DNA of 32,309 bases, from NCBI GenBank assembly GCA_001829495.1, contig MIBJ01000061.1, positions 27,413 through 59,721 of the forward strand, read 5' to 3'. The position numbers and the translations under genes were made by a program. Below the pieces are notes generated by a model. The model saw nothing but the letters and a program-made list of their open reading frames with translations. It was not told the DNA's origin and searched no databases. Below, piece after piece: positions 7,737 to 24,042 of the stretch. The DNA comes from Spirochaetes bacterium RBG_16_49_21. GTDB taxonomy: Bacteria > Spirochaetota > UBA4802 > UBA5550. Every line of letters begins with the position of its first letter. The first letter of the stretch is position 1.

Positions 7737-7930
7737 GACCTCACCCGCGCTCCGCGCACCCTCTCCCCTGTAGAGACGCAGTGCACTGCGTCTCTACAGG
7801 GGAGAGGGTTTCCGCTAAATTAGCTTTATCCTTCTACTCCCCCTCTCCAATGTGGAGAGGCCGGCTTCCGCCCTCCTGGCTCCGCCGGCATTGGGACATC
7901 CATGTCCGGCAGGTTCCGGGGGGTGAGGTC
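7737..7930. repeat. 194-bp palindromic intergenic element with a 52-bp perfect palindrome
   Basis: The spacer between exbB and the HIT gene (7704-7973) holds an element bounded by GACCTCACCC (7737-7746) and its inverse GGGTGAGGTC (7921-7930). Inside, 7758-7809 is a perfect 52-bp palindrome centred at 7783/7784, whose core (7770-7797) has the half-site GTAGAGACGCAGTG. A further 8-bp stem lies at 7842-7860 and a GGACAT..ATGTCC stem follows. No coding frame is credible. A diverged copy of the left part lies at 23977-24042. Confidence 0.8.
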
Positions 7931-18990: not shown

Positions 18991-19131
18991 TTTGACGGGC
19001 TGACGCCGCTTCCGACGACAGCCGGGGCCGTCTATCCCACCCTCCAAAGGGGGATATTAGACAATCCCGGCATCACAACGTCAAGCACGATACTGCCGCC
19101 GGCAAGGCACTGATATTCATTAAAATTCCGT

Positions 19132-19164
19132 TTGACAATTTCCGGCAAAGCCCATATTTATAAT
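19132..19164 (+). promoter_or_regulatory. Promoter of the zinc-ribbon gene
   Basis: A perfect TTGACA (19132-19137) is followed by TATTTA at a 17-base spacing (19155-19160) and by an overlapping perfect TATAAT (19159-19164) at 21 bases. Either way transcription would start just before or within the palindrome at 19166-19203, placing a hairpin at the 5' end of the message. Confidence 0.6.
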
Positions 19165-19165
19165 A

Positions 19166-19203
19166 GACGTGTAGGGGCGTATCATGATACGCCCCTACAC
19201 GTC
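19166..19203. repeat. 38-bp perfect palindrome (copy C of the 28-bp family)
   Basis: A perfect palindrome centred at 19184/19185 with core half-site GTAGGGGCGTATCA (19171-19184). Compared with the copies at 7770-7797 and 24010-24037 it has several base changes, each matched in the other arm. It lies between the promoter and the ribosome site of the zinc-ribbon gene, so it would fold in the leader RNA. Confidence 0.85.
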
Positions 19204-19215
19204 GCGGAGGCTTAC

Positions 19216-19521
19216 ATGGAATATATGAGAATCTGGAATGAAGTCGACATCAAAGAAGTTGAAACCCACATCATTATCGTGGACGATAAATACGGCCACT
19301 GCCCCGGATGCAAAAAGATCGGTATTGAGCTGAAGGATCTGAAAAAATGCCCCTCGTGCGGACGGGAGTTCAAATATGTGACGTCAAAGGAGGCGCGGGG
19401 CGGAAAATTCGATATTGTCATGAGAACGCGCAAGAAACTGCCTCACCTTACCTTTGTAGACTACGGCGACTACGAGCACGAAATCGGCAAGAAAAAGGCG
19501 GAGAGCCTGTTCAAGGTTTAA
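19216..19521 (+). CDS. Small zinc-ribbon protein
   Basis: A 101-residue protein with CPGC and CPSC pairs about 17 residues apart (around residues 33-36 and 50-53), a likely structural zinc site. FDIVMRTRKKLPHLTFVDYG and a Lys-rich C-terminus follow. I know no specific function. The ATG at 19216 has GGAGG seven bases upstream; an earlier in-frame ATG at 19132 would translate through the promoter and palindrome and is rejected. Its stop overlaps that of the converging HEPN gene inside GTTTAAAC. Confidence 0.82.
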   Translation: MEYMRIWNEVDIKEVETHIIIVDDKYGHCPGCKKIGIELKDLKKCPSCGREFKYVTSKEARGGKFDIVMRTRKKLPHLTFVDYGDYEHEIGKKKAESLFKV

Positions 19522-23976: not shown

Positions 23977-24042
23977 CTCTCACCCGCGCCGCCGTCCCCC
24001 CTCCCGCCTGTAGAGACGCAATGCATTGCGTCTCTACAGGCG
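23977..24042. repeat. Diverged partial copy of the 7737-7930 element, with a 38-bp perfect palindrome
   Basis: CTCACCCGCGC at 23977 and the following GC-rich stretch match the left side of the element at 7737. A perfect palindrome follows at 24005-24042 (centre 24023/24024, core half-site GTAGAGACGCAATG at 24010-24023). The right half of the 7737-7930 element is missing. It lies in the spacer between the divergent bactofilin and peptidase genes. Confidence 0.8.

Follow-up and report, generated by a model that had tools for sequence, protein, structure and literature searches.

A patchily distributed 28-bp GTAG...CTAC hairpin element with arms that may be perfected by fold-back copying

The three perfect palindromes present in the window, a stretch of 32,309 nucleotides from Spirochaetes bacterium RBG_16_49_21, are probably copies of a 28-bp mobile hairpin element whose symmetry comes from fold-back copying (probability of about 0.6). 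The mobility of the element is suggested by its patchy distribution, by identical 28-mers that recur in viral contigs and in distant phyla, and by its presence or absence at phage gene junctions. The frequent placement of the element exactly at the tip of an older hairpin, one case of loop replacement and a rewritten arm in two copies point to a mobile hairpin and to fold-back copying.

The palindromes of the window are located at positions 7758-7809, with 26-bp arms, and at 19166-19203 and 24005-24042, with 19-bp arms each. An unpaired centre is absent in all three. At site 1, the 28-bp GTAG...CTAC element (7770..7797), made of the core GTAGAGACGCAGTG and its inverse, is bordered by the flush 12-bp arms ACCCTCTCCCCT and AGGGGAGAGGGT of a host hairpin, the whole forming the 52-bp perfect palindrome. 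The element sits here in the hairpin loop of a copy of a dispersed host repeat of approximately 194 bp, with inverted ends GACCTCACCC and GGGTGAGGTC (7737..7930, boundaries set by eye). At site 2, the element (19171..19198, core GTAGGGGCGTATCA and its inverse) lies inside a 38-bp palindrome within the 5' leader of the gene directly downstream (19216..19521, plus strand), which encodes 101 aa, has no Pfam match and is conserved in relatives. At site 3, the element (24010..24037, core GTAGAGACGCAATG and its inverse) lies inside the other 38-bp palindrome, between divergent genes. What looks by eye like a remnant of the host repeat's left arm, CTCACCCGCGCC...CCTCCCGCCT, is present at 23979..24009, and no right arm matching it was found beyond 5 bp.

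The original prediction described these three sites as perfectly self-complementary over 52, 38 and 38 bp. The coordinates were verified, and the half-site sequences that it gave are correct as written. In 200 first-order Markov resamplings with the dinucleotide make-up of the window, palindromes with 11-bp arms occurred at a mean of 0.01 per window and longer arms did not occur. The three copies lie within 16.3 kb, which is a mild cluster noticed post hoc (P of about 0.03). An Rfam search of the window returned tRNA only. In the same-genus relatives that were aligned at sites 2 and 3 (five at site 2), no palindrome was present at these places. The same-genus regions at the window sites are too diverged or rearranged to place the junction, and site 1 adjoins a rearrangement. 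Site 2 is held in a short gap (19048-19215 of the window), and the same-genus relatives exhibit approximately 1.7-2.0 kb between the flanking matches; in locus L211, the corresponding gap is occupied by one more gene, which by eye would encode a tRNA-dihydrouridine synthase.

The genome assembly from which the window derives (G000; 3.80 Mb, 83 contigs; C denotes its contigs, and L the loci viewed in this and other sequences) was searched with the two-ended pattern GTAGRGRCG-N4-34-CGYCYCTAC. Eighteen forward matches were obtained, one of them an overlapping longer reading, which leaves 17 distinct two-ended sites. Perfection of all copies, as claimed, is true of the window but not strictly of the genome, where 14 of the 17 sites are perfect. 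The imperfect copies are C15:37442, with an odd 29-nt centre, C46:102696, with one mismatch, located at the apex, and C17:98935, with two adjacent uncompensated mismatches at pairs 10-11. The genome search that had been proposed to look for scarce or uncompensated copies yielded 17 two-ended copies, one of which (C17:98935) has uncompensated mismatches outside the apex. When the CTAC end was left open, three further one-ended sites were found (C45:113086, C79:26882 and C81:18642), to be read beside the 2 forward and 1 reverse matches of a backward control pattern. All 17 two-ended copies have GTAG at one end of a short stem-loop, as demanded by the search pattern, and the GTAG is paired with CTAC in every one of them, i.e., in 17 of the 20 sites of the genome. 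Of 23 GTAGRGRCGYA half-sites in the genome, four lie outside the palindromes listed above, and two of the four (L016 and L029) have the look of decayed copies by eye. No predicted frame of at least 90 aa spans the copy in nine of the 14 loci examined.

The anatomy of the element was deduced from 129 distinct viral sites among the matches listed, dereplicated by site and 15-nt flanks. No mismatched pair is present in 65 of these sites, for an expectation of 0.00065 per site if the arms were independent; one mismatched pair is present in 50, two in eight, three in five and four in one. The mismatches are distributed as follows: one at pair 5, two at pair 7, 11 at pair 10, one at pair 11, nine at pair 12, 46 at pair 13 and 15 at pair 14, these counts bearing only on the pairs other than 1-4, 6, 8 and 9, which are set by the search pattern. 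As the viral mismatches gather at the apex and the testable stem pairs are mostly kept, the GTAG...CTAC palindrome is a hairpin element, composed of GTAG, a stem, an apex of 0-5 nt, a stem and CTAC. In the 29 distinct viral cores that are perfect, each of the four bases occurs at pairs 10-13, which gives no support to a fixed dimeric protein site. When the viral contigs were searched with an open CTAC end, the ratio of two-ended to one-ended sites was 67:57 for the AGA type and 64:77 for the GGG type; a requirement for four or more inner pairs out of five changed these ratios to 61:38 and 59:37, respectively. Two-ended sites are over-represented in this pool, part of whose contigs were themselves retrieved with the two-ended pattern, and a number of the one-ended sites match by chance.

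The distribution of the element is patchy. It is absent from all five same-genus genomes, and one to five copies are present in eight of the 14 other genomes of the family. In a sample of the phylum, 38 of 296 genomes exhibit copies, from 0 to 131 per genome, and the forward matches summed per genome total 392, compared with 6 for the backward control pattern. The highest copy numbers in this sample are 131 (G054) and 48 (G110), whereas G000 has 17. The pattern GTAGAGACGCRATGCATYGCGTCTCTAC, which covers the form of the third window palindrome, occurs in at least 119 stretches of named-genome contigs. Among the matches listed (80 titles), its carriers include Bacteroidales and other Bacteroidota, Planctomycetaceae, Kuenenia, Fibrimonadales, Chitinispirillia, Desulfamplus, Parabeggiatoa and Wallbacteria. 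In four loci from named genomes (L144, L116, L136 and L057), a shared ACCGTACC-type stretch follows the palindrome, suggesting a larger composite repeat. At least 120 stretches with the palindrome are present in viral contigs, some of which may include host DNA. A search of annotated phage and plasmid records with a 30-mer gave no phage match and four weak plasmid matches. The element thus forms a patchy family common to viral contigs and several phyla, which goes beyond what the original prediction could see.

Presence and absence of the element can be compared at the gene junctions of a family of tailed-phage contigs, recognised by eye from a major-capsid-like protein and expanded to 72 loci. 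The GATTCATGAATC palindrome, with up to four substitutions, is found in one to six copies in 11 of the 31 phage contigs examined, some of which share near-identical stretches, and is absent from the other 20. The exact GATTCATGAATC 28-mer occurs twice in G000 (C56:49506 and C78:13395). The palindrome at L266:8548 is absent in the seven homologues compared, in which the stop codon adjoins the next ATG or lies a few bases from it. The gained stretch is of about +54 bp net and is not a clean 28 bp. These junction states were read from the sequences, as the filled and empty labels derived from loose matches are wrong in some rows, e.g., for L547 at L266:8548. In this phage family, the junctions of L266, L280, L525, L515 and L547 exhibit GTAG palindromes, ATGGAAAATTGAGAATGG-type or AGAGTACAAAAGTAC-type repeats depending on the phage, and the gene gaps look as if they were interchangeable between repeat families. 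At the place matching L266:6657, L287 and L547 run from GTAGGG straight into CTGAT, as though the interior of a palindrome had been deleted.

A possible, still tentative, alternative to fold-back copying is that the element is a classical GTAG REP moved by a RAYT, which would bind the GTAG and the hairpin on single-stranded DNA, cut at CT and join the repeat elsewhere, the symmetry being kept because either strand must fold. The element has a GTAG start, a hairpin and a CT adjoining the 3' stem, as in the TnpA-REP substrates described in PMC8266576, and some copies are one-ended, namely three in G000 and many of those in viral contigs. Four Y1_Tnp genes are present in G000, and a Y1_Tnp match was obtained in 23 of 27 further palindrome-bearing genomes (above the family cut-off in 22), with one or more matches each. 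On the other side, four of these 27 carriers have no Y1_Tnp match; Mucilaginibacter sp. BT774, whose record is not marked as a MAG, is a carrier without one. Among the 34 Y1_Tnp loci viewed, four from G000 and 30 of the matches in other genomes, none has intact copies on both sides, and 32 have no GTAGRGRCG hairpin within the fetched flanks. L485 and L489 exhibit only a half-site, the matching stem being absent. The nearest pairing seen is at L507 of a Planctomycetaceae genome (G021): a Y1_Tnp frame there, which has a HUH-like motif, is preceded upstream by a decayed copy at a distance of approximately 0.1 kb. At L486 of the same genome, a broken Y1_Tnp gene lies between an exact copy, at approximately 1 kb, and a degenerate copy, at approximately 1.2 kb. 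As G021 is rich in copies, this nearness may be due to chance. Y1_Tnp genes were rejected as linked neighbours within the 34 loci, there being no clear link apart from the partial exceptions L486 and L507; a linked gene may exist among the other matches. The pairing of the GTAG in the two-ended form also argues against a classical GTAG REP. It is nevertheless plausible that a TnpA-REP-like HUH enzyme acts in trans to place new copies, for which the gene neighbourhood gives little support.

The symmetry of the copies often continues into the flanking DNA. In 12 of the 17 G000 copies, at least 4 bp beyond the element are flush and symmetric: 23 bp in L001, 17 in L005, 15 in L003 and L011, 12 in L010 and L013, 10 in L006, seven in L008, six in L602, five in L014 and L015, and four in L009. 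The five other copies show little flush symmetry, with 0 bp in L002, L004, L012 and L603 and 2 bp in L601. Applying the same limit of 4 bp, flush symmetry was observed in eight of the 13 copies with fetched flanks, out of 19 family copies from other genomes, and in 14 of 129 named-genome sites (28-mer set, among the matches listed), compared with 0.7% for mispaired flanks. In viral contigs, only two of 127 sites, also among the matches listed, exhibit it. Stems of at least 8 bp begin at offset 0,0 in all six own cases, in nine of ten named-genome cases and in neither of the two viral cases, out of 16 own, 141 named-genome and 126 viral sites kept after dropping duplicates and short flanks. Placement at hairpin tips is thus lineage dependent, given the flush symmetry of only 0-2 bp in five of the 17 own copies, its rarity in viral contigs and the viral long stems that are not flush.

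The replacement of a hairpin loop was observed at L001, a 15-base flank probe of which is unique in G000 within one mismatch. In all five same-genus genomes, a terminator-like hairpin is found at the orthologous place. Its stem, AGATTGG / CCAATCT, is lengthened by A and T runs, its loop measures 14-16 nt, and in each case it lies downstream of a gene, with a T run after the stem. In G000, the element takes the place of this loop, with GGCGCT before it and AGCGCC after it. Of these six extra pairs, from zero to two are present in the relatives. Over the best matching stretch, identity between the orthologues is no more than 64-70%, so the ancestral loop of G000 may have differed from theirs. 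No usable orthologue was found for sites L006 and L008.

The dispersed host repeat, whose hairpin is ACCCTCTCC-loop-GGAGAGGGT, houses several copies of the element, including that of window site 1. The loop of this hairpin is usually 18 nt. Matches to the host-repeat pattern that do not contain the element number 32 in G000, 24 in the same-genus genome G011, four in G012 and two in G008, and there are none in G009 and G010. Thirty-one distinct unfilled G000 copies were compared, the 32nd (L621) being dropped as a flank duplicate; the table of unfilled copies has 33 rows, since L617 and L631 occur in both orientations. In all 31, GC precedes the left arm and TT follows the right arm, outer symmetry is absent, and the inner symmetric bases are never more than two. 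In contrast, all four filled copies (L005, L010, L011 and L013) exhibit three inner symmetric bases, which is seen in none of the 31 unfilled copies (Fisher P 1.9e-5, or 1.7e-4 without L013). L010 and L013 may represent one event, as they have the same filled state and their likeness is limited to the repeat. Outer symmetry is present in two of the four filled copies and in none of the 31 unfilled copies (P 0.010). In L011, the left arm is preceded by GAA, which inverts the TTC of the ancestral right flank, and in L005, the right arm is followed by GTGCG, which inverts the left flank of L005 itself. At the positions where the ancestral arm, as judged from the 31 unfilled copies, was different, the left arm of L011 and the right arm of L005 now match the opposite arm in reverse complement. 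These opposite directions of rewriting fit with either arm serving as the template.

With two clear copies and inner-base changes in four filled copies, the arm rewriting supports the copying alternative of the original prediction, in the form of fold-back template switching. This prediction had opposed selection for a hairpin or a dimeric site to the copying of one arm from the other. The rewritten arms of L011 and L005 favour copying and the apex-clustered mismatches favour a hairpin, whereas the fixed dimeric site finds no support.

Flush symmetry could also belong to the target only, if the element simply selected the loops of hairpins already in place for its insertion. The terminator-like hairpin at the empty place of L001 in all five relatives fits with such a choice. 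Moreover, GTAG and CGTC repeats have been noted inside palindromes (PMC3733652), and insertion sequences are known to target REPs (PMC1525189). Nevertheless, target choice predicts that loop bases are left on both sides of the element, whereas the long stems are flush in 6/6 own and 9/10 named-genome cases (0/2 in viral contigs). In addition, no more than two of the six extra pairs at L001 are found in its relatives, and the outer and inner symmetry of the filled host copies is absent in the unfilled ones. Target choice alone is accordingly an unlikely explanation.

Fold-back copying could account for these features as follows. The hairpin would form on single-stranded DNA during replication, and the growing strand would fold back. 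The folded strand would then use the opposite arm as its template, at times together with the flank next to it, before returning. Such copying would correct differences between the arms and carry the symmetry flush into the host DNA. As an existing inverted repeat would offer a place for the strand to return, old hairpins would be enriched among the sites and their loops would be lost. A more radical version, in which a transposase-free mobile hairpin would spread and be perfected solely by replication strand switching, from tip to tip, and travel between hosts on phages, seems improbable to us. Least probable is a functional RNA hairpin (a terminator or 3' end stabiliser) or a dimeric protein site, with selected pairing and without mobility of its own: the mostly kept stem pairing, the free apex, the lack of a spanning frame in nine of 14 own loci and the terminator-like hairpin under one copy (L001) speak for it, and against it stand the patchy distribution, with none in the five same-genus genomes and the same 28-mers across phyla, the location of window copies in a 5' leader (site 2) and between divergent genes (site 3), unlike terminators, and the four bases found at pairs 10-13 among the perfect viral cores.

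When the two arms of a repeat change in concert, this is commonly taken to mean that its structure is under selection. Here, the comparison of filled with unfilled host copies and the orthologous empty site point to a copying process able to make matched changes alone. If this is true, covariation in mobile palindromes would be weak evidence of function. The family also provides a natural system for watching arm correction, and is a case of very small elements common to several phyla and viral DNA.

In searches of the open-access literature, we found neither a description of arm copying for REP-like repeats nor one of a GTAG...CTAC family in phages. The cyanobacterial SDR4-6, which Elhai described in 2008, are reportedly mobile hairpins of very small size, in which compensatory changes and nested insertion occur. 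Compared by description only, the element resembles SDR4-6 as a small mobile hairpin with compensatory changes. SDR5 inserts between bases 3 and 4 of HIP1 (PMC4390886). The rewriting of one arm as the reverse complement of the other, which makes the hairpin perfect, is similar to template switching at quasipalindromes; the latter is known as a mutation process at inverted repeats and, in the part of PMC8794818 that was available, is not described as shaping a mobile repeat family.

The closest likeness is to REP repeats, which the element resembles in its manner of working. For TnpA-REP, the available part of PMC8266576 presents GTAG, the hairpin and CT as recognition and cleavage features, with cleavage at CT, and proposes a model in which A3G4 of the GTAG guides CT; group 3 enzymes act on perfect palindromic REPs. 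The element likewise carries GTAG, a hairpin and a CT by the 3' stem (in CTAC), and is a perfect palindrome as in group 3 (PMC8266576, same part). It differs from the REP/RAYT system in that no clearly linked gene lies near it and 4/27 carriers have no Y1_Tnp match. The GTAG REPs (Di Nocera 2013) occur in phyla that include cyanobacteria and Planctomycetes, and some of their families lie inside host palindromes, such as the GTAG-23 repeats of T. roseum and the GTAG-15 dimers of A. variabilis (PMC3733652, in the sections available). With these REPs, as far as those sections describe them, the element shares the GTAG start, a short stem, complementary subfamily changes, a small apex and a spread over several phyla (PMC3733652). 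However, their GTAG is unpaired at one end, whereas it is paired with CTAC in the two-ended form described here, and the same sections do not mention a presence in viral contigs or the rewriting of arms, both of which are seen here (PMC3733652). The element also has no clear RAYT neighbour and a low copy number in G000. As the two-ended form has neither a free GTAG nor, in the 34 loci viewed, a repeat-flanked RAYT, we do not claim membership of the GTAG REPs; the element is a double-ended relative in kind of these GTAG-tagged repeats.
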